Under the pieces are notes generated by a model that saw only the letters and a list, made by a program, of their open reading frames with translations, ran no database searches and was not told the DNA's origin. 22,163 bases of DNA from a virus, in the IMG/VR virus record IMGVR_UViG_3300025652_000630, positions 1-22,163 of that record; one strand, given 5' to 3'. Each line of letters begins with the position of its first letter. The first letter of the stretch is position 1. Below are positions 8,339-22,163 of the stretch, piece after piece. A program made the translations under genes and the position numbers.

Positions 8339-9283
8339 ATGGCAAAACTAGCCCGAGTGAGGTCCATCCTCGCCAAAACCGAGTCAACCTACGGAACAGA
8401 CTCAACTCCAACAGGTTCGGATAACGCGATTCAAGTTTCAGCTCTTGAAATCAACCCTGCTGAATCCGAAATTCTTTCGCGTGATTTGATCCGCAGTTAT
8501 TTAGGCAACAGCCCTCAGCTGATTGCAAATACTCGCGTTAGTGTTACGTTCACGGTTGAATACTCAGGCTCCGGCACAGCTGGAACCGCTCCCAAGTATG
8601 GCCCGCTAATTGAAGCTTGCGGCTTTAGCGAAACCATTGTTGCAAGTACTTCGGTAACGTACTCTCCGATTTCAAGTACTTTTGAGTCAGTCACAATTTA
8701 CATCGACAACGATGGCATTCGTCACAAGGTGACTGGGGCTCGAGGTTCTTTTACTCTTAGCCTTAATGCAAACCAGATCCCAGTTTACAATTTTACAATG
8801 ACTGGGCAATACGTTGCCCCGACAGATACAGCATCTCCCACGTTAACGTTTAGCAATCAAGCAACGCCTGAAATCTTTAACGATACAAACACCACAGCGT
8901 TTACTCTTTTCTCAGAAACTGGCTTAGCCCTTCAGTCTGCTGAAATTGATCTTGGCAATGAGGTCGTTTATCGGGAATTGGTCAACTCAAACAAAGAAGT
9001 GCTAATTGTTGATCGCGCGGCAACGGCCAATTTTGTGGTTGAGTGTCCAACGTTGGCAGTGGCTGACTTCTTTGCTCTTGCTGTTGCTGGAACTGCTGGT
9101 GATCTAAGCATTGTGCATGGGGCCACGGCAGGCAACATTATTACCTTGACTTCTCCAGCGACTGGATTGTCATTAGGTAATCCAACGTATTCGGAAGATC
9201 AAGGCATTGTTATGCTGAACCTTCCTACTACTATGGTGCCAAGTTCGTCGGGTAACGACGAAATCACACTTGCTTACACCTAA
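8339..9283 (+). CDS. Major tail protein (tail tube subunit)
   Basis: Stacked hexamers of this protein form the tail tube through which DNA is injected. The 314-residue sequence is almost wholly beta-strand with many Ser and Thr, as in gpV-like tube proteins (lambda gpV: 246). The N-terminal 'ARVRSILAKTESTYGTDSTP' and 'NAIQVSALEINPAESEILSR' are typical of tube proteins; 'FTVEYSGSGTAGTAPKYGPL' and 'LIEACGF' mark the usual loop and helix that reach the neighbouring subunit. The C-terminal half may be a second, surface-exposed beta domain. It lies between the tail terminator and the chaperone genes, the standard location. A GAGG lies eight bases before the ATG. Confidence 0.9.
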   Translation: MAKLARVRSILAKTESTYGTDSTPTGSDNAIQVSALEINPAESEILSRDLIRSYLGNSPQLIANTRVSVTFTVEYSGSGTAGTAPKYGPLIEACGFSETIVASTSVTYSPISSTFESVTIYIDNDGIRHKVTGARGSFTLSLNANQIPVYNFTMTGQYVAPTDTASPTLTFSNQATPEIFNDTNTTAFTLFSETGLALQSAEIDLGNEVVYRELVNSNKEVLIVDRAATANFVVECPTLAVADFFALAVAGTAGDLSIVHGATAGNIITLTSPATGLSLGNPTYSEDQGIVMLNLPTTMVPSSSGNDEITLAYT

Positions 9284-9956: not shown

Positions 9957-12511
9957 TGGCCAAGGTTACAACCGACTTAACAGTTGTCATAAAAACAGCA
10001 GGCGATGCTGGTCTTGATAAATTAACGCGGACTTTAAACGGGCTAGGGCGACAGGCCAAGAGTGCTGCGGCTCCGTTTGATCAAATATCAAAAGAACTGA
10101 AAGACGTTCAAAGAACGTCAAAAAATAGCATTGCAAACCTTCGAGGTTACAGAAATGCTTGGCGTGATATTACAGAGCAAGTTGAGATTGGGAGTAAAGC
10201 ATTTAAAGAAGCCACGGCTGAAGCAGCAAGACTTGATAAGCAACTGCAAAAAGCTGAAGGCCGAAAAGGCCGGGGAGGGGGCGGTCTTGGTGGAAAGCTA
10301 AGAAGCATTGGAGGTGTCGCTTCTACTGCTTTAGGTGCTGGCGTTTTTGGTGGAGTAGAAGGTTTTGGAGGTGCAATAGCAGGAGGACTCATTGGAGGAG
10401 TCCCAGGAGCCGCAGCTGGCGCTGTTGCAGGCGCATCGCTTGGGCAACTAAGGCAGCAAGCCTCGGGAATGGGCGAGCTTGTTGCAAGAGTCAATGGCTT
10501 AAAAATTGCACTTGCAGGAGTCAGCACGTCTCAAGAGGATTACAACGTAAGTATTAAATCCGCCATTGGATTTTCCAAGGATTTTTTAATTCCTATTGAC
10601 GATACGATTAAGCAGTACACCAGGCTTAAGGCTGCTGTTGTTGGGGCTGGTGGAACGACTAAAGATACAGATCAAGCTTTCCGTGGGATGGCAGCAGCGG
10701 TGCTGGCTACTGGCGGAAATGTGCAAGATTTTAATTCTGCTTTGGTCGCCACTGCTCAAGTATTTTCTAAAGGAAAGGTTAGTGCAGAAGAATTAAGGCA
10801 ACAAATTGGAGAAAGATTGCCTGGCGCTTTTACTATATTTGCCGACGCTATGGGCATTTCTACCCGTGAGCTAGACAAATTGCTTGAACAGGGCAAGGTA
10901 GACCTTACTAGTTTTGGCGGATTTACCAGGGAATTGTTTGAACGGTTTGGCAAAACAGCAGAAATTTTAGGCGATGCGCCAGAAAAGGCTGGGCAACGAC
11001 TGCAGGTCGCGTTAAGTTTTGCTGCTTTAGAATACGGAGGATTTTTTCAAAAAGTTGGCGCTGGTTTTCAAGACTACGCAACAAATTTAGTTAATTTTGC
11101 TATTAATAACAAAGAAACATTTAAAGAAGTTTTAGCTAACGCAATTGTTTTTGCAAATGATATCCAAGAAATTTTTAAAAGGGCATCTCAGGCAATAGTT
11201 GACGCTTTTGTTATTGCTGGTGATTTTATTGAAAGAAATTTCAAGCCAATTCTTGACAAAGTTATTCCAGCAGTAGAAGGCCTTGCAAAATTAATTTTGC
11301 GAGCTGACGCAGAATCGGTAGGAAGGCCCGTGCCAAGAGGCGAAAAATCATTAGAGCAAAAACTTACTGAAGCAAGAGGCACTGTTGATAGTTTTTTTGC
11401 ACCGTTTGACCCTACTTCTTTTGGCACTGGCACTAAGGCTGGCACTCAATCGTTGGCTGGTGGCGATGATGACGCAAGCGGAGGCGCGTCTAAGTTGTCT
11501 AAATTTTACCGGCAAGCTCAATCAGAATTTAACAAATTTGTCAGAGAGCTTGAAAAAGGAGACAAGTTGTCCGTCAAGTTGCTAACCAAAGCAACACAAA
11601 ACAACGCGCTTTTAGGCACACGCAATAAACTAGAAAGAATTAACACGCAGTTTACAATTGACACCTCTAACGCCTTGCAAAAATATCAAGAAATTTTGTC
11701 TGGCAACCTTACAGACGAAGCGCGAATAAATTTAGAAAAGGCTAGGGGAATAGAACTGACTAATTTAGAAATTCAAAAAAGAAAAGACTTAAAAGCAATT
11801 TTTGAGGCAGCCGGGGCTGATTTTGCAAATTTTGCAATTAAGCAAAACAAAGAACTTACAGACACAGATAAATTGTTCAAACAAATTGAAAACACATTGT
11901 CAACAAGCATTGCTAGCGGACTTCAAAGCTTAATAGATGGCGCAAAAACTCTTAAAGAAGTTTTTTCAGATATTTTAAAGCAGCTTGCGTCTGTGTTTTT
12001 GCAAGCGGCTGTCAAGTCTGCCGTTGGCAGCCTTTTTGCAAATCAAAATGGCAACGTGATTGCGCAAAACAAAATTGTTCCTTACGCAGCTGGTGGGGTT
12101 GTAAGCAAGCCAACAATTTTCCCGTTAGCTAATGGGACTGGCCTAATGGCTGAGGCTGGGCCGGAGGCAATTATGCCGTTAAAGCGTGGCCCTAGTGGCC
12201 GTCTTGGTGTTGAAGTTACAAATCAAGGTAGCGCAAGAGAGGCGATGAATCGTTACTCACGTCGCAACAACGGGTCGGTTTCGGAAAGATTGTCGGGAGA
12301 AGACAGCCAGCCAGGCTCTGCTTTGCAAACTGCTGGACCAATTGACGTTCGCTACACCGTAGAACGTATCAACAACGTTGAATATGTAACTGCTGACCAG
12401 TTTCAATCTGGAATGCAACGTGCAGCACAACAAGGCGCACAGCGCGGTGAGCAGAATACACTGAAGCGATTACAACTCAGTAGCGGTACGCGTCGGAGGT
12501 TAGGAATTTGA
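9956..12511 (+). CDS. Tape measure protein
   Basis: The tape measure sets tail length and is ejected with the DNA. The protein has 851 residues, almost equal to lambda gpH (853), so a tail of broadly lambda-like length is inferred. Residues 20-105 are helical and charged. Residues 105-165 are Gly/Ala-rich and hydrophobic ('GGVASTALGAGVFGG', 'GGAIAGGLIGGVPGAAAGAV'), the membrane-active segment usual in tape measures. Residues about 185-335 match the tape-measure core ('GFSKDFLIPIDDTIKQYTRL', 'VSAEELRQQIGERLPGAF'). The C-terminus has 'AAGGVVSKPTIFPLANGTGL' and 'MAEAGPEAIMPLKRG', a very common ending in this family. AAGAAGGA lies six bases before the ATG, which overlaps the chaperone stop by one base. 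Confidence 0.96.
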   Translation: MAKVTTDLTVVIKTAGDAGLDKLTRTLNGLGRQAKSAAAPFDQISKELKDVQRTSKNSIANLRGYRNAWRDITEQVEIGSKAFKEATAEAARLDKQLQKAEGRKGRGGGGLGGKLRSIGGVASTALGAGVFGGVEGFGGAIAGGLIGGVPGAAAGAVAGASLGQLRQQASGMGELVARVNGLKIALAGVSTSQEDYNVSIKSAIGFSKDFLIPIDDTIKQYTRLKAAVVGAGGTTKDTDQAFRGMAAAVLATGGNVQDFNSALVATAQVFSKGKVSAEELRQQIGERLPGAFTIFADAMGISTRELDKLLEQGKVDLTSFGGFTRELFERFGKTAEILGDAPEKAGQRLQVALSFAALEYGGFFQKVGAGFQDYATNLVNFAINNKETFKEVLANAIVFANDIQEIFKRASQAIVDAFVIAGDFIERNFKPILDKVIPAVEGLAKLILRADAESVGRPVPRGEKSLEQKLTEARGTVDSFFAPFDPTSFGTGTKAGTQSLAGGDDDASGGASKLSKFYRQAQSEFNKFVRELEKGDKLSVKLLTKATQNNALLGTRNKLERINTQFTIDTSNALQKYQEILSGNLTDEARINLEKARGIELTNLEIQKRKDLKAIFEAAGADFANFAIKQNKELTDTDKLFKQIENTLSTSIASGLQSLIDGAKTLKEVFSDILKQLASVFLQAAVKSAVGSLFANQNGNVIAQNKIVPYAAGGVVSKPTIFPLANGTGLMAEAGPEAIMPLKRGPSGRLGVEVTNQGSAREAMNRYSRRNNGSVSERLSGEDSQPGSALQTAGPIDVRYTVERINNVEYVTADQFQSGMQRAAQQGAQRGEQNTLKRLQLSSGTRRRLGI

Positions 12512-13056
12512 CGACTCTTGCTTTTGGCAATCTTTTGCGGATGGATGGAAAGGCAGATATTGAAGGCGAAGACGGTGGATACGTTGTCGCTCAGCACCGC
12601 TTTCAGAACTTTTTTATCGGCAAAGAAATTGTTTACGGCGGCGAGAACTACATGTTTCTCCCATTTGGCTTTAGCGGTGTAACGATTAACCGCAGCGCCG
12701 ATGGTATGGAAGCAACTTTAGTTTTCCCAAATCAACGAAGCGGCAGCTTTGAAGCAGGCCAAATTCCAGCAGGCCACAACCTTACGACGAATTGGGCGGA
12801 TGAAGCCGTTAAGCACGTTTGGCGCATCAACGTCAAAATGATGACGTTCGACGATCCAGATTCAACAGCGGAGGGCAACATGAATTTGATTCATGAGTAC
12901 ACCAGCCTTGTAACTGGCGGCAAATTTGAGCCAACTACTGTCACGCTTAACTTGAGCACCGTGTTGGATGCTGTTGGTTCTGATGTCCCAATGCGTTCGT
13001 TAAACCAGCGATTGGTTGGCAACATCCCTACCAGCAGTGCAGTCAGATTGCAGTGA
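12508..13056 (+). CDS. Minor tail tip protein, gpL-like, lacking the cysteine domain
   Basis: The start is TTG at 12508, overlapping the tape measure stop as TTGA and preceded by GGAGG at nine bases. The 182 residues follow the course of lambda gpL: 'IVYGGENYMFLPFGFSGVTI' matches gpL's 'G..Y.p.p....g', then 'GMEATLVFPN', 'HVWRINVKMMTFDDP' and 'KFEPTTVTLNLSTVLDAVGS'. The end 'LVGNIPTSSAVRLQ' may dock to the hub. gpL-type proteins form part of the tail tip ring next to the tape measure's C-terminus. Lambda gpL is 232 residues and binds an iron-sulphur cluster through C-terminal cysteines; this protein has no cysteine at all, so that domain is absent. A DUF1833-type label would be the alternative. 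Position before the NlpC-like gene supports the call. Confidence 0.7.
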   Translation: MTTLAFGNLLRMDGKADIEGEDGGYVVAQHRFQNFFIGKEIVYGGENYMFLPFGFSGVTINRSADGMEATLVFPNQRSGSFEAGQIPAGHNLTTNWADEAVKHVWRINVKMMTFDDPDSTAEGNMNLIHEYTSLVTGGKFEPTTVTLNLSTVLDAVGSDVPMRSLNQRLVGNIPTSSAVRLQ

Positions 13057-13411
13057 TCTAATCGGTCTGCGTTACCGGCTTGGCGCTGACGGCACAGGCG
13101 GCGAGATCGATTGCATCCACCTTTGCTATAAGGCGTTGGAACGTATGGGTATTGACCCGCCACCGTTTAAGCAAGCTTGGTACGAATGCGGCAAGTGGGA
13201 AATCTGCCGTGATTTATTGGGCTGGGGTTTTCGTGTTGAGAAGCCTGAGTATGATGGTGACATTCTGCTGCTGCCGCAGCAATCCTGGGCATTCGCGGTC
13301 ACATGGGAAACGGGGATTCTGTACGTGAATCGAACGAGCGAAAAGGTGCAATGGTCTATAGCCCAGCCGTTTACGACGTGCCCCTGCTTCCGTACGAAAA
13401 GCAGCTTATAA
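13016..13411 (+). CDS. NlpC/P60-like tail tip protein (gpK-like) lacking the catalytic His
   Basis: The fold is suggested by 'GLRYRLGADGTGGEIDCIHL', which corresponds to the NlpC/P60 pattern 'G.pY..G.....g.DC..l' with Cys33 as nucleophile, and by 'PEYDGDILLLPQQSWAFAVT' with the usual 'GDi.l' strand. Active enzymes then carry a His in an 'HvGI' strand; here the matching strand reads 'TWETGILYVN', and the only His in the protein is His35, next to the Cys. It is therefore probably structural rather than a working peptidoglycan hydrolase. It lies between the gpL-like and the hub genes, the place of lambda K. The first 41 bases overlap gpL-like. The start is uncertain: TTG 13016 and GTG 13037 are both possible and neither has a good ribosome binding site. 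The 3' end overlaps the hub gene by 61 bases if that starts at 13351. Confidence 0.75.
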   Translation: MATSLPAVQSDCSDLIGLRYRLGADGTGGEIDCIHLCYKALERMGIDPPPFKQAWYECGKWEICRDLLGWGFRVEKPEYDGDILLLPQQSWAFAVTWETGILYVNRTSEKVQWSIAQPFTTCPCFRTKSSL

Positions 13412-16400
13412 GAACGCTTGGTTGCACAGAAGAAGAATACAAGATTTTTTCTGCAGAAGTCCGCAAGAAAGGAAGACTGCGCCCTGCAGAATATAAACAC
13501 ATTCCTGATATAAAAAACGATGCTGTAACTCCAATTCTTATCAACCTTGCAATTAGCTTAGTTTTAACTGGCGTTGCTTATTTGCTGACGCCAAAGCCAA
13601 GGCAGCCAAGTGCTCCACGGCAAAGAGGTGGCGGGCAGCGAACACTAGACAGTCTTGTTGGTGCGGATCGCTTTGTTTCAAGCACAGGCTTTGATAGCAC
13701 TGCAGAGCTTGCTGATTACGACGCGCCAATACCAGTTATCTTTGGCTTGTATGACGAGGCAACAGAATCTGGCGGTGTGCTTATTTCGCCAAAGCTTGTC
13801 TGGTCTCGTATCTTTTCGCAGGGTATGCAGCAATCAGCAAAGCTGATGTTTGTTGTAGGCGAAAGAGGTGTTTTTGCAAACGGTTTTGCTGGCATCCCTC
13901 GGCCTGATGAAGCCTCTTTTTTCTTAGGCAACAACAGGATTGATCCTGTCTTTGATGAGCTTTACACGATCTACTGGAATCGCAACACTGGCGATAATGA
14001 TTCCGGAAGAATTTTAAAAAATAATCTTGCTTATCCTGAAGATCTAAGGAATGCACCTGGAAACATTTACGACGCTGACAACGACTTAATAGACGGGGTC
14101 AAGAAGGAAGACGTTTTTACTTGCCCCAATGCAACGAATGATCAGAGCACAGATTTCTGCCAAGCCTTATCGCCTTCAAACTCCAGCCAGTTTGGGCTTT
14201 ACGCGCCAATCAAAAACGGCACGCCTTTCAGGCCAAATTGGAGAGTAATTTCGATTCCGTTGATAGATAAAAAACCAGACCGCAATAAGCGCACAAGAAG
14301 AGAGCGCATCAAGATTGCAGGCAACATCAGAACAGATGGTAATAGGTTTAAGGAAATTGATATGGAGCATGTCCTTCGCCTAGACGGCATGAAAGGCACG
14401 GGCAGAAATTATTGCAGTCGCATGGGACTTGTAGAGGTTGAACAAAATGGCACAATTAGCCGGATACCAGGCGGCAGTTCAGATCAAAAAAGGATAGTCA
14501 AAAACATTAAGAAAGGGGATGTTGCTGTCTTTATTTTGGAGGAAGACGAAATACCAGAAGATTTGCTTGGCAAGGAAGTAGGCCAGACAGGCTTTGTTTC
14601 CATTGAAGACATAAATCAGGCTGTTCGCTCTCAGCAAATAGCAGCTGACAACATGCTGCGCGTTGGTGAAATTTTTGCAATTGGCGGAGCAAAATGGCAG
14701 GTTACAAAGCGCAGAATTTCCTTGTTTGATAATGGGGTAAGAGCACGAAAGCAAAGAATCGAATTGAAGTGTATCGATGCGTCGGGCGGCACTCAAAGTA
14801 CACGCGTTGGCATCGTTAACCCGCGATCCGTTGTTAAAGGGGATGGAACGTTATCTGCAGATGGCGAGGACATTAAGCTGCAAGGATTTATCGGTGATCA
14901 AGAGGCGCCAGAAGTAGACACATTGTTCTACCCTTTAATGCGTATTGCGACTGGAACGTTTACTAATACGCGCAAGTGCCACACGACAGAAATTGGAATA
15001 AAAAGCGTTGTGTACCAAAGGCTCAATGGCCTTGCAAATTTCAACACTATTCCGACAGCTGAAGAGCTTATAGAGTCAGATGAGGACAGGCTGCAAATCA
15101 CCAGTGGAACGATTAATTCTTACATTAAAAGGGCTTCAGTCTTCCAGCTTTACGCAAGAGAAAAAGGCACCAATAAATTCTTACAAGTATCAAGATTGCC
15201 ATTTGTTGTCATAGGCAGCAATCCAACAGCGGCTTATAACAGCATTCTTGTTCGGCACAAAGAAGCAAGATTTGATTTTAAGTTTTTGCCGATTTCAGGC
15301 GCACAGCTTGCTTCTTTCTCTGATGAAGATTTCTTTATTCGGCTAGATGCAAGCCTTGACAATACGGATGACAAGAGCGATGCACCTGGCATCGTAACTG
15401 AAGAAGCAAACAACTTTAAGATAGAAACAAAAGGGACAATTGTTACGTTGTCTTCGTTCCAGGTCAGCAAAGAGCTGGTGTCAAATCAAAAAGTAAAACC
15501 TGCTGAAACTATAACTACATCTACACCAACATCCGTGAAAGCCACTGGGATCGAACCAAGTCAGATAATAGGTTCTAGAGTTGTTGGCGTGAGAAGACAG
15601 CCACATGTTCAGGTAATTAGCACTTCGCCTGACCCTGAATCAAGAGGCGATTACGGTGCTCTTACTCGTGAAATTTTTGGCACAGTAATCAGGAAGAGAA
15701 CAAAGACTGTAATCCATACAGAATTTTTTCCAGGCCCCGACAACCTTAAAAGATGGGTCAAGATTCAGTACAAAGCCACAAGTTATAAATTCGACTTAAC
15801 CAGTCATTGGGCGTATCTAAATGGCCTTAGATATAACTGGAACTTTGACAACAATGACCCGGACAATATTGTCGTACTAGACAGCAGCAAGAACTGGGAC
15901 GGCAAGGGCAGCATAAACATCAAGAGAGGTGAAGTTGATAGCAGCAGGAAAGACCAAAGCTCGACACCTGGCTTCAGCACGAATCCTTTTGTTAAAGATA
16001 ACCCCAGACCCATAGAACAAATTAAATACAATCTACAGTTAGACAAAGAGGAGATTACCAGGGAGGGAGATGTAGAACAGGCTTATTTGCATGAAATTTT
16101 TGGCAACCCTTATCAGTCTGGAAGCATAAGAGACATACTCACAGAAACAGTAACCATAAACCAATCAAACAGAAGCCTTAAGATTGACATTACCGCGCAG
16201 ATTAAATTTAGCCAAGACACCCAGGCAAGGTATTACGCTGATTTTAAAGTTGCTATTGTTGAAGGATCAGCCGAAGGAAATTGGAAGCAAGGAGATAAAT
16301 TTAATCACTCAGTGACCGTAACTAGCGACACCGACGCAGACCTTTACTTTACAGAGGGCCGGGAGATAACCAAGAAATATAAAGTTGACAAAGTCGATAC

Positions 16401-17811
16401 AGTAACGATTACAAAAGCGAGCATCACTGGCGATCGTTTCTTTGAAAAATACACACAGTGTTCGGACGTTACTTATTACGATGGTCTGATTGAAAAATCG
16501 AATGCAACTCAGCCTGAGCATGAGATTATGTACATCAATGAGATGTCGTCAAACACTGCAGCGAGCGGAGGCAAGCCTTTGTATAACGGGCTTGTTACGG
16601 CTGGGCTTGTAATAAAAGCTGATCGCAATTTTAATCGGTTAGATCAACTCAGAGTATGGCTAGCAAAAGGTTTGCGTGTGGAGCGTTTGCACCCTGTAGC
16701 GACATCGTACGAAAACAACAGCGACAGCTATGGCGCAAGCAATTTGTTTAGCGACTTGGCTTATTTCCTGTTGACTAATAAGCAGGCTGGCGTCGGCGAA
16801 GCTATCGTCAACGCAGACCTAGTAGACAAAAATTCATTTATAGAAACCAGCAAGTTTTTGCGCAGAAACGGTCTGTTCTTCAATGGAGCCTTGTCTTCAA
16901 AGATAAATCTACAAAGCTATCTAACCGAAACAGCTCCTTTCTTCTTATGCAATTTTATTATCAAAAACGGCAGGTATGCTTTGACTCCGGCGCTTCCGGT
17001 TTCGTCTGACGGCAAGATCGTCAGCACTGAAAGAATGGAAATCAAGCAGATCTTCACTGCAGGCAATATCCTTGAGGACAGTTTTGAGCTTGAATATCTA
17101 AGGAGAGAAGAAAGGCAGTCTTTTGTTGCGTCTGTTAAATATCGCCTAGAAACTAAAAACAGTTTCCCTGAAGAGAAGGTGCTCCGTGTTCGCCGCGTTG
17201 GAGTTGGCGACACACAAACATTCCCTGATACGTCCACGATTGAAACATTTGATTTCACGCAGTTCTGCACGACTGAGGATCATGCGTTGCTAGCGGCAAA
17301 GTATTTCCTGGCCTTGCGAGAATATGTGACTCATACGATTAAGTTCACCACGACGCTGTCAGGGCTTTCGCTAGAGGCTGGTGATTACATCAAGGTCTTT
17401 ACTGAAGCAATGCCTTTCGACGTGGCAAGGAATGGAACTGTCAGTTCAACAGGTGCAATCACTAGCACGTCGCCTTTCGCCGACGGTGATTACAACATTC
17501 AATATTTTTACACTGGTTCGGATACTGACATTGAAAATGCTGGACTAAAAGAAGCAGTCGCAAGAATCTCAAATGATGCAATAGCTGACTCTAGGTTCCA
17601 CAGCATTATTTTTACTCTCAATAGTCCGACCGTCGTTTCTCAAAACACCTACTTAGTTGAACAGTTGACCATGGCCCAGGATGGAACGGTGCAGATCGTT
17701 GCATCTGAGCACCCTTGCGACAAGGATGGGATCAGCAAGATCAGTAAGCTTATCCTTGGTATAGATGACCGAGGCAACAGCATTAACTTTTTTGCCACTG
17801 ATCGAACCTAA
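13351..17811 (+). CDS. Central tail hub and host-specificity protein, gpI/gpJ fusion type
   Basis: This is the largest gene, 1486 residues from ATG 13351. That start is preferred over 13303 because AAAAGG lies five bases upstream and the text from there ('MVYSPAVYDVPLLPYEKQLI') looks like a native N-terminus. Residues 58-80 form a hydrophobic segment ('PILINLAISLVLTGVAYLLT') followed by a Pro/Arg/Gly-rich linker, as in gpI-type tail tip proteins. From about residue 120, 'ADYDAPIPVIFGLYDEA' and 'GGVLISPKLVWSRIF' start the gpJ-like hub. The C-terminal third ('EDSFELEYLRREERQSFVAS', 'FCTTEDHALLAAKYFLALRE', 'LSLEAGDYIKVFTEAMPFDV') is the typical hub-barrel text. gpJ trimers plug the tube and carry receptor specificity; lambda gpJ has 1132 residues. 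The stop overlaps the next gene by one base. Confidence 0.9.
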   Translation: MVYSPAVYDVPLLPYEKQLIRTLGCTEEEYKIFSAEVRKKGRLRPAEYKHIPDIKNDAVTPILINLAISLVLTGVAYLLTPKPRQPSAPRQRGGGQRTLDSLVGADRFVSSTGFDSTAELADYDAPIPVIFGLYDEATESGGVLISPKLVWSRIFSQGMQQSAKLMFVVGERGVFANGFAGIPRPDEASFFLGNNRIDPVFDELYTIYWNRNTGDNDSGRILKNNLAYPEDLRNAPGNIYDADNDLIDGVKKEDVFTCPNATNDQSTDFCQALSPSNSSQFGLYAPIKNGTPFRPNWRVISIPLIDKKPDRNKRTRRERIKIAGNIRTDGNRFKEIDMEHVLRLDGMKGTGRNYCSRMGLVEVEQNGTISRIPGGSSDQKRIVKNIKKGDVAVFILEEDEIPEDLLGKEVGQTGFVSIEDINQAVRSQQIAADNMLRVGEIFAIGGAKWQVTKRRISLFDNGVRARKQRIELKCIDASGGTQSTRVGIVNPRSVVKGDGTLSADGEDIKLQGFIGDQEAPEVDTLFYPLMRIATGTFTNTRKCHTTEIGIKSVVYQRLNGLANFNTIPTAEELIESDEDRLQITSGTINSYIKRASVFQLYAREKGTNKFLQVSRLPFVVIGSNPTAAYNSILVRHKEARFDFKFLPISGAQLASFSDEDFFIRLDASLDNTDDKSDAPGIVTEEANNFKIETKGTIVTLSSFQVSKELVSNQKVKPAETITTSTPTSVKATGIEPSQIIGSRVVGVRRQPHVQVISTSPDPESRGDYGALTREIFGTVIRKRTKTVIHTEFFPGPDNLKRWVKIQYKATSYKFDLTSHWAYLNGLRYNWNFDNNDPDNIVVLDSSKNWDGKGSINIKRGEVDSSRKDQSSTPGFSTNPFVKDNPRPIEQIKYNLQLDKEEITREGDVEQAYLHEIFGNPYQSGSIRDILTETVTINQSNRSLKIDITAQIKFSQDTQARYYADFKVAIVEGSAEGNWKQGDKFNHSVTVTSDTDADLYFTEGREITKKYKVDKVDTVTITKASITGDRFFEKYTQCSDVTYYDGLIEKSNATQPEHEIMYINEMSSNTAASGGKPLYNGLVTAGLVIKADRNFNRLDQLRVWLAKGLRVERLHPVATSYENNSDSYGASNLFSDLAYFLLTNKQAGVGEAIVNADLVDKNSFIETSKFLRRNGLFFNGALSSKINLQSYLTETAPFFLCNFIIKNGRYALTPALPVSSDGKIVSTERMEIKQIFTAGNILEDSFELEYLRREERQSFVASVKYRLETKNSFPEEKVLRVRRVGVGDTQTFPDTSTIETFDFTQFCTTEDHALLAAKYFLALREYVTHTIKFTTTLSGLSLEAGDYIKVFTEAMPFDVARNGTVSSTGAITSTSPFADGDYNIQYFYTGSDTDIENAGLKEAVARISNDAIADSRFHSIIFTLNSPTVVSQNTYLVEQLTMAQDGTVQIVASEHPCDKDGISKISKLILGIDDRGNSINFFATDRT

Positions 17812-18188
17812 TGGCTTTCCCTTCTCACAGACCAACTAGCCGCAGCTTTGAGGCTGGCGACTATTCAATAAAAACTTACAAGGCACAGAACGGAGCTGAA
17901 ACTCGGATTTTGTACGGCGACAGCCGCACCAATATGAAGCTCAGCCTTAGCTATGCCAACATCACCGACACCCAGGCTGATGATTTCATCGCTCACTACG
18001 ACGAGGTGAAGGGCACATACAAAACGTTCGACCTTGACGCCAATGCGAAATCAGGCTGGGAAGGCACTAGCTCAGCCTTAGATGCCACCGCTCAAGGCAA
18101 TAAGTATCGATACGAAGGCCCACCGCAAATCACGCAGGTGCGACCAGGGACCAGCACTGTTACCATTAATCTGATTGGTGTTCTCTGA
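17811..18188 (+). CDS. Minor tail protein, possibly gpM-like
   Basis: The 125-residue protein has 'AQNGAETRILYGDSRTNMKL', 'SLSYANITDTQADDFIAHYD', 'GTYKTFDL' and, at the end, 'GPPQITQVRPGTSTVTINLI'. The order (an FGDGY-like strand and turn, a helix that closes with 'F..hy....GtyktF', a final strand pair) resembles small distal-tail proteins such as lambda gpM and the DUF2460-type family, but I have no decisive motif. In lambda, gpM lies upstream of the hub; here the gene follows it. It is coupled at both ends by one-base overlaps, so it is made together with the hub and the tube-like pair. Role in tail tip assembly is inferred. Confidence 0.65.
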   Translation: MAFPSHRPTSRSFEAGDYSIKTYKAQNGAETRILYGDSRTNMKLSLSYANITDTQADDFIAHYDEVKGTYKTFDLDANAKSGWEGTSSALDATAQGNKYRYEGPPQITQVRPGTSTVTINLIGVL

Positions 18189-18619
18189 TGGCAAAGGTCT
18201 ACACCGGCAGAGATGGCGTTATGCAGGTGGGTGGCTCGACCTTGGCCAAAGTGGTGAGTTTTTCTGTTCAGTCAAATCTTGAGACGTTAGAAACAACAAC
18301 GCTTGGCGACAATATCCGTAGCTATAGCCCTGGCATTTTGGGTTATACCGGCAGCGCAACTTTGTTGTATTACAAAGAAGACAACGGCAGCATTAACACC
18401 AGCAGCCTGCTGAACAAGCTGGTCAAGACTGGTACCGCAGGCGTTTCGTCTAGCGACACTGTTGAGCTGACGTTCCGTTGGGTGGATGGAACGGACAACA
18501 ATGACATCAAAATGACGGCATACGTTACAAGTGCCAACATTGGCGCTGCTACTGCGGATCTAGCCCGTGCTGAGATTTCGTTTATCGGTACTGGTGCGTT
18601 GTCTGCAGCGTCGGTCTAA
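18188..18619 (+). CDS. Tail-tube-like protein downstream of the hub (copy A)
   Basis: The 143-residue protein is mostly beta-strand. It opens 'MAKVYTGRDGVMQVGGSTLA' and carries 'SFSVQSNLETLETTTLGDNI' followed by 'GYTGSATLLYYKED' and closes with 'AYVTSANIGAATADLARAEI'. This is the course of small tail tube or TTP-fold proteins: first strand, 'E..dtTtlgd' loop, strand with 'G....s....y', helix, last strands. The same Thr-rich motif recurs in the next gene, so the two are paralogues. The dedicated major tail protein is already encoded at 8339, so this protein more likely builds a special ring or tail-tip decoration than the tube proper. That is inference. It starts on a TGATG overlap and ends on a TAATG overlap. 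Confidence 0.7.
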   Translation: MAKVYTGRDGVMQVGGSTLAKVVSFSVQSNLETLETTTLGDNIRSYSPGILGYTGSATLLYYKEDNGSINTSSLLNKLVKTGTAGVSSSDTVELTFRWVDGTDNNDIKMTAYVTSANIGAATADLARAEISFIGTGALSAASV

Positions 18620-19491
18620 TGAGCGTTTACCTAGGAACGTTTGGCAAAGTTGAACTGCAGAGGCAGTTTGACGGCAACGACCTGTTTTCGACTGTCAACA
18701 CCAGTGACGTCAACGCAACACGCAAACGGTTTAGTTTTGACTTTCAGCATGGTCAGTTGCTAACTGGTGATCAAGTTGAAATCACAAGCACCAATGGCGC
18801 TGCATTATCTTTTATCTCTGGCTACACAAAAGCAAGCGTCAAAAAGTTTTTACATATTGACGATCTTGACGGTGTTCGTCTGTATGACACGTTTGCCAAT
18901 GCAATAAACGGCGGCACAGCAAACGCAACAGCTTTGGCGGTGCCTGGATCAGACATCCCAATCAGGGTCAAGGTTGAGAATGCAGATTTTAAACTATTAG
19001 CGCGGGTCAAATCTTATGAGCTAAACACTGAACGTGAGACGGTAGATACAACAACGCTGTCTGATGAGTTCCGCAGCCGGATCAGCACATTGATGTCCGG
19101 GTCTGGTCGGATGGCGTGCGAGTGGGAATACACAGGAGACACCGTTAATGAATTGCCTCAATACTTGGTGCAGCTTGCATTACGCACGAAAGTTGGCTCA
19201 CAATTTAAGGCAAGGTTTTATTTAAAAACTCTTGGTTACAACCCAAGTGGAGAAGCTGCAACTTTAAATGATGAAATTTGGTATGAATTTACTGGGGTGC
19301 TGACAGCTTGTGCCACACAATTTACGCCTTCAAATATTGTCGAGATTGCAGCAGACTTTATTACTACTGGAGATGTGAGCATGAAGGTTAGCCTGACCCC
19401 AACTCAAGCGATCTTGCAGGAAAATAGCGATGACATACTCTTGGATCAAGACGGCACAGCTAAGCTGATGCTTGAAAGTTCCGACACTTAA
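18619..19491 (+). CDS. Tail-tube-like protein downstream of the hub with inserted domain (copy B)
   Basis: The 290-residue protein opens 'MSVYLGTFGKVELQ', similar to copy A, and resumes the shared pattern only at about residue 123 with 'FKLLARVKSYELNTERETVD' followed by 'TTTLSDEFRSR' (TTTL at 144-147; TTTL at 36-39 in copy A). About 105 residues therefore appear inserted after the first strand; this insert is beta-rich ('RFSFDFQHGQLLTGDQVEIT', 'KFLHIDDLDGVRLYDTFANA'). The shared part continues with 'LMSGSGRMACEWEYTGD', 'LRTKVGSQFKARFYLKTLGY' and 'YEFTGVLTACATQFTPSNIV'. The C-terminal extension 'ILQENSDDILLDQDGTAKLM' looks like a short repeat (ILQE.., ILLDQDGT, LMLESS). It probably acts with copy A at the tail tip or fibre base; no direct evidence. 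Confidence 0.7.
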   Translation: MSVYLGTFGKVELQRQFDGNDLFSTVNTSDVNATRKRFSFDFQHGQLLTGDQVEITSTNGAALSFISGYTKASVKKFLHIDDLDGVRLYDTFANAINGGTANATALAVPGSDIPIRVKVENADFKLLARVKSYELNTERETVDTTTLSDEFRSRISTLMSGSGRMACEWEYTGDTVNELPQYLVQLALRTKVGSQFKARFYLKTLGYNPSGEAATLNDEIWYEFTGVLTACATQFTPSNIVEIAADFITTGDVSMKVSLTPTQAILQENSDDILLDQDGTAKLMLESSDT

Positions 19492-19511: not shown

Positions 19512-22163
19512 ATGGCTGATCTGAAAATCAGTGAACTTAACGCCCTCGCTGGTGGCAATCTCGTTGCGGCAGATGAGCTAGCAATTGTTGACGACTCAGC
19601 CAGTGAAACCAAGAAAATTACGGTTTCAGATCTGATCACAAACGGCGTGACGGTCATCAGTGATGACACGATCCCAGGCGCCAAGATTCTGTTTGGTGCG
19701 GGTGATATTGCTACAGCCGCCTTGGCTGACGCTGCTGTCACAACAGCAAAGGTTGCAGATGACGCGATTTCAGCAGCAAAGCTGGGCAATGAATCAACGG
19801 TAGACCTAGTTACAACGTTGCCAGGCAGTGGCGCGTTTACTGGTCAGCTTGCATTTGATACTGACGACAACAAGCTATACATCTGGGATTCTTCATCGTG
19901 GCAAAGCCTGAAGGCTGCTGGTTCTGTCAATACTGTCAGCGGCAGCACGACTGGTGAGATCAATATCGTTTCAAGCGTTAGTGGCGACACTGTCACGATA
20001 AGCGCGACGATCGATGACACATCATCTGCCAATCAGTTCTTAGCTGGCCCGACTGGTGCTGCTGGTGCGGTTGGTTATCGCGCTATCGATGGAAGTGATC
20101 TACCAGTTGCAACGACTTCCGCAAAAGGTGGCGTCGTCGTCAATGGCGAAGGCTTGCGGATGGATGCCAATACCCTTGAAGTCGATAACGACGTAACCGC
20201 TAGTGCGATCCATCATGTCGTTACGTATGACGCCAAAGGTCTAATTACTGGCGGTCGAGTTTTAGCAGCTAGTGATCTGCCAATTGCCACAGCAAGCGCA
20301 GTTGGTGGTGTCATCCCGAGCACCGGTTTAACCGTTGATGGATCAGGCAACCTGACGATCGACAACACCGTCACGGCTGACACTTACACCAAAGTGACGG
20401 TTGCAGCCACTGGCCTGGTTACAGCAGGAACAACGCTTGCTGCTGGTGATCTGCCAAGCCACAGCGCAGATCTGTTGACCTCCGGCAGCATTCCTCTGGC
20501 ACGTATTGCCGACAACCTGATTACTGGCGCAAAGCTGGCTGATTATGCGTCGGCAAAAATCGGCGAGACAAACCCGACGGCTGATTACATCGGCCAACTG
20601 TTCTTCAATCCACTGACTAGGGATTTAAGTCTGTGGGACGGCAACGTCTTCCAGCCAATCGGCATCAGTGCTGGTGAGATTGTTTTTGCTGGAACGTATA
20701 ACGCAACAACAAACCTGCTGAGTTCTGTCACTGCTGACGGCACTGGCGCTGGTTTTGTTGTGGGCCAGGCATTGCCTGCATCCTCTAGCACCAATAAAAA
20801 TTTCTACGTTGTTGTTGATGTTGGCGGCACTGGTACGTCACCCGCTCCAGCCGTTGCTTTAGCACCGCCTGATTTCATTCTTAGCACTGGCACTGAATAC
20901 AAGCTGATTGACGTTTCCGAAACGGTGACGGCACAGATTGCATCAAACGTTGGTTTCACGCCTGTTGGCACGATTGCAGCCAATAACGTTCAGACGGCAA
21001 TTGCTGAGGTTGACAATGAGAAGGTTGCCAAGAGTGGCGACACGATGACCGGCGACCTGACGCTAAATGATGCAAATGTCGTCTTTGAGGGTGCAACAGA
21101 AAACGATAATGAGACCACGTTGACTGTTGTCGATCCAACTGCTGATCGCACAATCACGCTGCCTGATGTAACTGGAACGGTTATCACAACTGGTGACACC
21201 GGGACTGTTACTAGCACGATGTTGACTGACGGCACGATCGTCAATGCTGACATTAATGCAAGTGCAGAGATTGCAGTTAGCAAGCTTGGAAATGGCACTG
21301 CACGTCAATTGCTGCAAACTGATGCTGGCGGAACAAGCGTTGAATTTACAAGCAACGTTGATGTTCCTGGAACGTTAGATGTAACTGGTGCGGCAACACT
21401 TGATTCGACTTTAGATGTTGCTGGTCTGATCAGTGCTGATGGCAAAGTTAGCTTCCCGCTGGGTAGTGCCAGTGCGCCAAGTTTGCTACCTGGGGCTGAT
21501 ACTAATACTGGAATCTTTTCACCTGGGGCTGATCAGTTAGCGATCACAACGGGTGGAACGCAGCGCGTTGTTGTTAACAGCTCGGGCAAAGTTGGAATTG
21601 GAGTGACGGCCCCGCTTGTGAAGCTGGACGTCGTAGATAGTGCGGCAATGTCAGCAATTTTTAGGCAATCTTCTGGAAATCAAACCAGTGTTTATATAGA
21701 GCATGACGACAGCTCTGGCCGTATTGGTACTTCATATGCCGCAGGTGGTGGCGCGTATAAACCCTTAGCGTTTGAAACATCAAATACCGAGCGCCTCAGA
21801 ATCGACAGCTCGGGCAGGATGTTGCTTGGTACAACGACTGAAGGTGCAGCAATTGCCGATAATTTAACTGTTGCAGATAGTGGTCACAGTGGCATAACAA
21901 TCCGATCCGGAACATCTAGCCTTGGTTCGCTTTATTTCAGTGATGGTACATCTGGTGCTGCTGAATATGCAGGATTTGTGGAATACAACCACAACGGTAA
22001 TTATTTAGGTTTTGGAACAGGTAGCAGCAGTCGCCTACGAATCGACAGCTCGGGCAATGTTGGGGTTGGAACGTCGTCGCCTCAAGGTAAACTACACTTA
22101 GCCGGTAGCAGTGCAGCACTTTATTTTGAAGATACTGCTTCTAGTAATACGCTTTCAAGGATT
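19512..22163 (+). CDS. Tail fibre protein, N-terminal 884 residues (cut by window end)
   Basis: The frame is open from ATG 19512 to the last base. The N-terminus 'MADLKISELNALAGGNLVAA' with 'DELAIVDDSASETKKIT' is a frequent opening of marine phage fibres and probably joins the tail. Then follow 'GQLAFDTDDNKLYIWDSSSW' and two tandem repeats of 58-59 residues starting 'LPVATTSAKGGV' and 'LPIATASAVGGV'. A second 'GQLFFNPLTRDLSLWDG' copy comes next, then the 'AKSGDTMTGDLTLND' and 'VDPTADRTITLPDVTGT' segments. Further on are repeats of the type 'RLRIDSSG..(L/V)G(T/V)' spaced 76-80 codons. All are beta-rich, low in Cys and rich in Gly, Thr, Ser and Asp, as in trimeric fibres that contact the cell surface. 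The receptor-binding end lies outside the window. Confidence 0.9.
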   Translation, partial: MADLKISELNALAGGNLVAADELAIVDDSASETKKITVSDLITNGVTVISDDTIPGAKILFGAGDIATAALADAAVTTAKVADDAISAAKLGNESTVDLVTTLPGSGAFTGQLAFDTDDNKLYIWDSSSWQSLKAAGSVNTVSGSTTGEINIVSSVSGDTVTISATIDDTSSANQFLAGPTGAAGAVGYRAIDGSDLPVATTSAKGGVVVNGEGLRMDANTLEVDNDVTASAIHHVVTYDAKGLITGGRVLAASDLPIATASAVGGVIPSTGLTVDGSGNLTIDNTVTADTYTKVTVAATGLVTAGTTLAAGDLPSHSADLLTSGSIPLARIADNLITGAKLADYASAKIGETNPTADYIGQLFFNPLTRDLSLWDGNVFQPIGISAGEIVFAGTYNATTNLLSSVTADGTGAGFVVGQALPASSSTNKNFYVVVDVGGTGTSPAPAVALAPPDFILSTGTEYKLIDVSETVTAQIASNVGFTPVGTIAANNVQTAIAEVDNEKVAKSGDTMTGDLTLNDANVVFEGATENDNETTLTVVDPTADRTITLPDVTGTVITTGDTGTVTSTMLTDGTIVNADINASAEIAVSKLGNGTARQLLQTDAGGTSVEFTSNVDVPGTLDVTGAATLDSTLDVAGLISADGKVSFPLGSASAPSLLPGADTNTGIFSPGADQLAITTGGTQRVVVNSSGKVGIGVTAPLVKLDVVDSAAMSAIFRQSSGNQTSVYIEHDDSSGRIGTSYAAGGGAYKPLAFETSNTERLRIDSSGRMLLGTTTEGAAIADNLTVADSGHSGITIRSGTSSLGSLYFSDGTSGAAEYAGFVEYNHNGNYLGFGTGSSSRLRIDSSGNVGVGTSSPQGKLHLAGSSAALYFEDTASSNTLSRI
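20100..20276 (+). repeat. Fibre tandem repeat unit 1 (59 codons)
   Basis: The unit runs from 'LPVATTSAKGGVVVNGEGL' through 'VTYDAKGLITGGRVLAASD'. It aligns along its full length with unit 2: 'LP(V/I)AT.SA.GGV', 'L..D...L..DN.VTA', 'k.vT....GL(I/V)T(G/A)G..LAA(S/G)D'. It is a protein-level repeat that has diverged at DNA level. Confidence 0.8.
20277..20450 (+). repeat. Fibre tandem repeat unit 2 (58 codons)
   Basis: The unit runs from 'LPIATASAVGGVIPSTGL' through 'VTVAATGLVTAGTTLAAGD' and is followed by a broken third start 'LPSHSADLLTSG' at 20451. It probably arose by duplication with unit 1 and now adds one more segment to the fibre shaft. Confidence 0.8.
21577..21588 (+). repeat. Fibre short repeat, copy 1 of ACAGCTCGGGCA
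   Basis: The 12 bases encode part of 'VVVNSSGKVGIG'. Exact copies lie at 21805 and 22045, all in the same reading frame (228 and 240 bases apart). The protein motif is 'R(V/L).(V/I)(N/D)SSG..(L/V)G', a shaft repeat common in marine phage fibres. Confidence 0.75.
21800..21816 (+). repeat. Fibre short repeat, copy 2 (17-base version)
   Basis: AATCGACAGCTCGGGCA is identical to the copy at 22040-22056 and contains the 12-base core of copy 1. It encodes 'RIDSSGR' in 'RLRIDSSGRMLLGTTT'. Identity at DNA level, including codon choice, points to recent duplication or recombination between shaft segments. Confidence 0.8.
22040..22056 (+). repeat. Fibre short repeat, copy 3 (17-base version)
   Basis: The second exact copy of AATCGACAGCTCGGGCA lies 240 bases (80 codons) after copy 2, in 'RLRIDSSGNVGVGTSSP'. 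Further copies may lie beyond the window edge. Confidence 0.8.

Follow-up and report, generated by a model that had tools for sequence, protein, structure and literature searches.

Two homologous tail-tube-fold proteins encoded between tail hub and fibre genes in marine siphophages: candidates for a fibre-anchoring tail-tip adaptor

The tail-tip genes of the window

The DNA analysed here is the IMG/VR virus record IMGVR_UViG_3300025652_000630 with its entire 22,163 bases (referred to as the window); similar contigs recur in IMG/VR. Between hub and fibre genes it encodes two neighbouring proteins, A143 and B290, which belong to the tail tube protein (TTP) superfamily by fold and by sequence profile. 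A143 (18188..18619, plus strand; tip copy A) is a single-domain, undecorated tail-tube-fold protein of 143 amino acids. B290 (18619..19491, plus strand; tip copy B) comprises 290 amino acids; an outer domain is inserted at approximately residues 16-112, and the C-terminal tail is variable. The original prediction had assigned two homologous open reading frames (ORFs) to 18188-19491, and these coordinates proved exact. It had further placed the pair after the tail hub, which is correct with regard to the common tip block; the pair is not, however, directly adjacent to the hub gene, as a further gene separates the two.

The hub gene (HUB; 13303..17811, plus strand) encodes a gpJ-like hub/central fibre protein of 1502 amino acids, identified by its match to phrog_27845 (tail protein, 3e-30), its position and its size. 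The intervening gene (17811..18188, plus strand) codes for M125, a gpM/distal-tail-like protein of 125 amino acids, and overlaps the hub and the A143 genes by one base. B290 is followed by a fibre gene (19512..22163, plus strand) which runs off the window and whose N-terminal ~130 amino acids form a conserved, putative attachment part. The main tail tube is encoded at 8339..9283 (plus strand; PF18906, E 8.8e-20) between the tail terminator and the chaperones, i.e., in the normal tube slot, as had been claimed before. This excludes the possibility that A143 represents the true main tube and the gene at 8339 has another function, and in the relatives with known tube class the tube slot is likewise occupied by a gene other than A143 or B290.

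Homology and tube fold of A143 and B290

The postulated homology was substantiated at three levels. BLASTP aligned A143 and B290 with an E value of 2e-5 over 27 amino acids, the profile-profile comparison (hhalign) of the A143 family (50 relatives) with the B290 family (52 relatives) yielded a probability of 95 and an E value of 4e-8 for residues 17-138 of A143 and 125-253 of B290, and the A143-family profile detected B290 in the window at E 4e-9 and, besides A143 itself, no other protein, main tube included. A chance likeness, also of the shared motif, is ruled out by these matches.

The tube fold consists of a beta-sandwich, a flanking helix and a long loop, and known members of the TTP superfamily assemble into hexameric or pseudo-hexameric rings. 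A143 matched the major tail protein families phrog_1407 and phrog_10528, and the latter was also found in 41 of the 52 B290 relatives. The Pfam family PF16460 (Phage_TTP_11) matched 40 of the 50 A143 relatives (best E 4.7e-6) and 14 of the 52 B290 relatives (best 1.6e-4). The AlphaFold2 model of A143 (mean predicted local distance difference test, pLDDT, 66.5) reached a best Z score of 9.5 and found 63 chains at Z ≥8, mainly tail tubes, Hcp and baseplate tubes. For the B290 model (mean pLDDT 72.2) a Z score of 9.0 to the R4C tail tube was obtained over 109 residues spanning positions 6-259, and the best Foldseek match was the tail tube of phage T1 (9l0f); Hcp and baseplate tube proteins were among the matches here as well. 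Unrelated folds, or the lack of any likeness to tail tubes, would have spoken against the assignment of both proteins to the tube fold; structure prediction gave neither. A sequence search of solved structures returned no significant homologue of A143, B290 or M125, and predicted viral structures searched with B290 gave low-coverage matches only.

The similarity of the N-termini, which had also been noticed before, is explained by the architecture of B290. Its residues 1-15 correspond to the first tube strand, followed by an inserted domain of ~95 amino acids and then by the remaining tube domain, so that the N-terminal similarity to A143 is interrupted. The inserted domain is conserved to 57%, compared to 59% for the tube core, as would be expected of a binding platform. 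The same architecture is known from the tail tube gp41 of phage T1, in which an immunoglobulin (Ig)-like domain interrupts the tube fold at residues 16-94 (PMC11945409); gp41, however, is a main shaft subunit, whereas B290 is encoded in the tip block. An assignment of the inserted domain as E1 FCCH domain, hinted at by a single weak match to a structure (UBA7, Z 4.9), is not claimed, as the PF16190 profile was negative in the window and nine relatives. In some contigs (L072:2616-3638, L073, L074, L075) B290 comprises 340 amino acids due to an insertion of ~50 amino acids ('ALVAGTVYQIVTVGNSNFTSVGAAANTVGTVFTATG') near residue 107. The motif shared by A143 and B290 is among the most conserved stretches of both families and corresponds, by our reading, to the region of the long loop, which tail tube proteins use for subunit and ring contacts (R4C, PMC10276861).

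A143 and B290 are not simple copies of their own phage's main tube, which belongs to another class (PF18906). They may or may not be each other's direct duplicates: both families form their own supported clade, and their sister status varies with the data set. A recent tandem duplication was neither shown nor firmly rejected by the approximately unbiased (AU) test, with p 0.016 for one set, which contained a mislabelled slot-type tube (L137), and p 0.165 for a trimmed set. A143 relatives with 26-30% identity occupy the normal tube slot in Roseobacter phage CRP-811, phage DSL-LC06 and cyanophage MED4-117. The latter (L140, NC_020857.1) carries neighbouring and very similar single-domain tube genes in its tube slot (611-1030 and 38473-38832, spanning the record ends).

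Linkage of the pair to hub, tube and fibre genes

The order hub-M125-A143-B290-fibre was constant in ~130 marine IMG/VR contigs, and B290 relatives are encoded in at least 595 IMG/VR stretches. The pair stays with the tip and fibre genes and not with the main tube. The only contig detected in a scan of bacterial and archaeal genomes belongs to a metagenome-assembled genome of Flavobacteriaceae, which does not establish a host. Within the tip block, the genes overlap by 1 or 4 nucleotides at 109 of 122 HUB/M125 and 130 of 133 A143/B290 junctions, and 123 of 131 M125/A143 junctions show an overlap of 1 nucleotide. The main tube gene, on the other hand, possesses a separate leader of ~67 nucleotides (64-70) in most of 54 relatives. 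This arrangement would fit low, matched copy numbers of the tip proteins and high numbers of the tube.

Pairwise identities over 56 contigs were used to determine which of these genes vary jointly. One block comprises HUB, M125 (r 0.82 with HUB) and two proteins encoded between tape measure and hub: a gpL-like hub-domain candidate of 182 amino acids (12508..13056, plus strand; phrog_25799, 2e-6; r 0.94 with HUB), whose gpL identity is suggested by its position, and an NlpC/P60-like tail peptidase candidate (13016..13411, plus strand; PF00877 at E 0.0085, below the curated cut-off; position conserved). A143 and B290 form a second block, with r 0.83 between each other and weak correlations with the hub (A143 0.28, B290 0.43). 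The fibre N-terminus correlated with A143 at r 0.63, with B290 at r 0.64 and with the hub at r 0.54. In the 705 pairs with hub identities below 33%, the hubs share only 31%, and A143 retains 68%, B290 59%, the fibre N-terminus 67% and M125 52% identity. The pair is therefore largely independent of the hub.

It is also independent of the main-tube type. In pair-bearing contigs long enough to include the tube slot, the main tube belongs to one of three classes, which we labelled T1 to T3 (class T1 is distinct from phage T1). The PF18906 class of the window (T1, ~312 amino acids) accompanies the pair in seven contigs, including a nearly identical copy of the window's phage; an A143-like, undecorated single-domain class (T2, ~140 amino acids) does so in 11 contigs, and a single-domain class with an insert placed as in B290 (T3, ~255 amino acids) in five. 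Since three main-tube classes occur together with it, the pair does not belong to the tube type. Among hub-different pairs of contigs, identities for same versus different tube class amounted to 68.6 versus 71.9 for A143 and 63.4 versus 63.8 for B290; the raw clustering of B290 by tube class vanished under this restriction, and a dependence of the two proteins on the main-tube class was rejected. Conversely, neither A143 nor B290 was found in 11 contigs that combine the window's type of tube with a lambda-type tip (M-L-K-I-J) and extend at least 8 kb beyond the tape measure start. In two contigs with head and tube of the window's type and a lambda-type tip (L144, L189) the J gene runs directly into a fibre-like gene.

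Candidate roles at the tail tip

The tip of these phages probably contains a tube-like ring besides the pair. M125 matched phrog_15525 (minor tail, 1e-19) and phrog_1302 (distal tail, 0.0018). PF05939 did not match M125 itself, and hhalign linked M125 to the relatives of a PF05939-matching (gpM-family) protein with E 2.6e-6 over 56 columns and a probability of 89. The gpM ring of phage lambda, which joins tube and hub, has a tube-like fold itself (PMC10721106). M125 is likely the counterpart of this ring, and it probably belongs to gpM or nearby together with the M proteins of relatives, in contrast to A143 and B290, which match the tube (TTP) families and not gpM.

For the pair itself, precedents exist, which the initial statement that no described system with this exact pair is known overlooks. 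In phage T5, p140 forms an extra TTP-like ring, attributed to a duplication of the tube gene, which is trimeric and pseudo-hexameric and is encircled by the p132 collar bearing the lateral fibres; p140/p132 were called a landmark confined to T5-like phages (PMC10038345). According to the citation in the same publication, gp54 and gp48 of phage T4 are similar extra tube-like baseplate rings (PMC10038345). As in T5, TTP-like proteins are encoded in the tip block of the window in addition to the main tube, and A143 would resemble p140 as an undecorated extra ring at the place of the fibre collar, which in T5 consists of p132 with the lateral fibre pb1. The differences are that p140 is thought to be derived from T5's own tube, whereas A143 is a single-domain protein outside the tube class of its own phage; that p132 has an Ig fold, whereas the partner of A143, B290, is itself a tube-fold protein; and that A143 and B290 occur as a pair, of which one member bears an inserted outer domain. 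The T4 proteins would be comparable as a pair of tube-like proteins located between hub and tube, with the difference that no sheath gene was seen in the window. In the titles and abstracts listed for paralogous tube proteins and phage FCCH domains, the exact A143/B290 pair was not described.

We regard it as an evenly balanced proposition that A143 and B290 are ring-forming structural proteins of the tail tip which act as fibre-anchoring adaptor, by analogy to p140 and its collar. At the end of the tail, A143 and B290 would add one ring, two rings or a mixed ring beside that of M125. A143 would be the undecorated ring, while B290 would carry the inserted domain facing outwards and form, together with A143, a platform that holds the N-terminus of the fibre whose gene follows; contacts between A143 and B290, and of both with the fibre, may be what keeps the two proteins constant. 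Fold, homology, gene order, gene overlaps, conservation and the independence of hub and main-tube type were shown, whereas the assembly into rings, their place in the virion and the contact with the fibre are inferred. Among the close relatives of the fibre N-terminus, in a scan of the best 80 of 461, B290 immediately precedes the fibre gene in all 60 whose upstream DNA was readable. A tip ring or fibre collar, as initially suggested, remains the best-fitting role, but not one made from copies of the phage's own tube subunit. A more tentative extension of this reading is that A143 and B290 represent a portable two-component fibre socket, built wholly of tail-tube folds and combined with several tube and hub types in many marine siphophages.

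Several observations weigh against a fibre-anchoring role. The fibre N-terminus tracks M125 (r 0.63) equally well as the pair, and recombination blocks alone can produce a co-variation of neighbouring genes. The confidence of the AlphaFold2 models is moderate (pLDDT 66 and 72), their input alignments are shallow (50 and 52 sequences), and the scan of fibre N-termini was restricted to the best-matching relatives. Moreover, in the cultured phages of the searched collection there was no match to B290 or the fibre N-terminus, and for want of a cultured relative no virion proteomics or cryo-electron microscopy is known for either.

It is rather unlikely, albeit worth serious consideration, that A143 and B290 are in-line adaptor or initiator rings stacked between M125 and the main tube, which start polymerisation or adapt the symmetry and have no direct role for the fibre, comparable to gp48/gp54 of T4 or to the undecorated p140 ring. 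The retained tube fold and the strong conservation of the motif in the ring-stacking loop region would agree with this function, as would the overlap of the pair's gene block with the hub and M125 genes and the position of known tube-paralogue rings (PMC10038345). A contact with the tube should, however, lead to co-variation with the tube class, which the identities of 68.6 versus 71.9 (A143) and 63.4 versus 63.8 (B290) do not display, and the pair tolerates three different tube classes.

We consider it improbable that the two proteins are minor tube subunits which intermingle with those of the shaft, e.g., in rare decorated rings. The architectures of both recur in main-tube classes of relatives (that of A143 in T2, that of B290 in T3), and cyanophage MED4-117 holds two similar single-domain genes in its tube slot; yet the genes of the pair overlap within the tip block, have no leader like that of the tube and are absent from phages with the same tube and another tip. 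Hardly to be expected are assembly factors (tip/fibre scaffold or chaperone) which are not retained in the virion, a view favoured by the missing virion proteomics and opposed by the tube fold and conserved outer domain, both typical of structural ring proteins, and by structural relatives that are tubes, Hcp and baseplate proteins.

To our knowledge, the attachment of side fibres to non-contractile tails has been solved for few phages. If the fibre-anchoring role of A143 and B290 holds true, it would constitute a second and independent solution for building a fibre-bearing tip. This solution would be common in marine phages, would keep a tube-fold pair constant while tube and hub change, and lacks a cultured example in the searched phage collection. 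In uncultured phages, the pair could then be used to mark points of fibre exchange.

It seems that additional tube-fold genes downstream of the hub gene originated on more than one occasion, since cultured cyanosiphoviruses with related hubs possess two or more paralogues of the M125 family instead. S-CBS3, S-LBS1 and Microcystis phage Mic1 have a related hub (S-CBS3 and S-LBS1 also a related tube) and carry additional gpM-like paralogues of the M125 family after the hub, without A143 and B290. In Mic1 (L260), genes 34, 32, 27 and 26 match the M125 (gpM-like) profile, two of them located before and two after the hub. In many relatives, M125 comprises 250-281 instead of 125 amino acids through an insertion of ~130 amino acids (L099:7222-8001, L113:7222-8001, L117:3582-4382, and others), and the insertion of the L099 type holds a motif ('YYYCVNHSGMGG') which is cupredoxin-like in appearance.

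The window also encodes a terminase, a portal, a large capsid protein, a tail terminator, two chaperone-like genes and a tape measure. Its main tube (8339-9283), like those of L262-L268, reads as two tube-like halves, which suggests a trimeric ring as in pb6 of T5. In a further contig (L201:9857-11249) two adjacent ORFs of 333 and 127 amino acids both resemble the main tube (26-29%) and possibly represent a split or duplicated tube gene.
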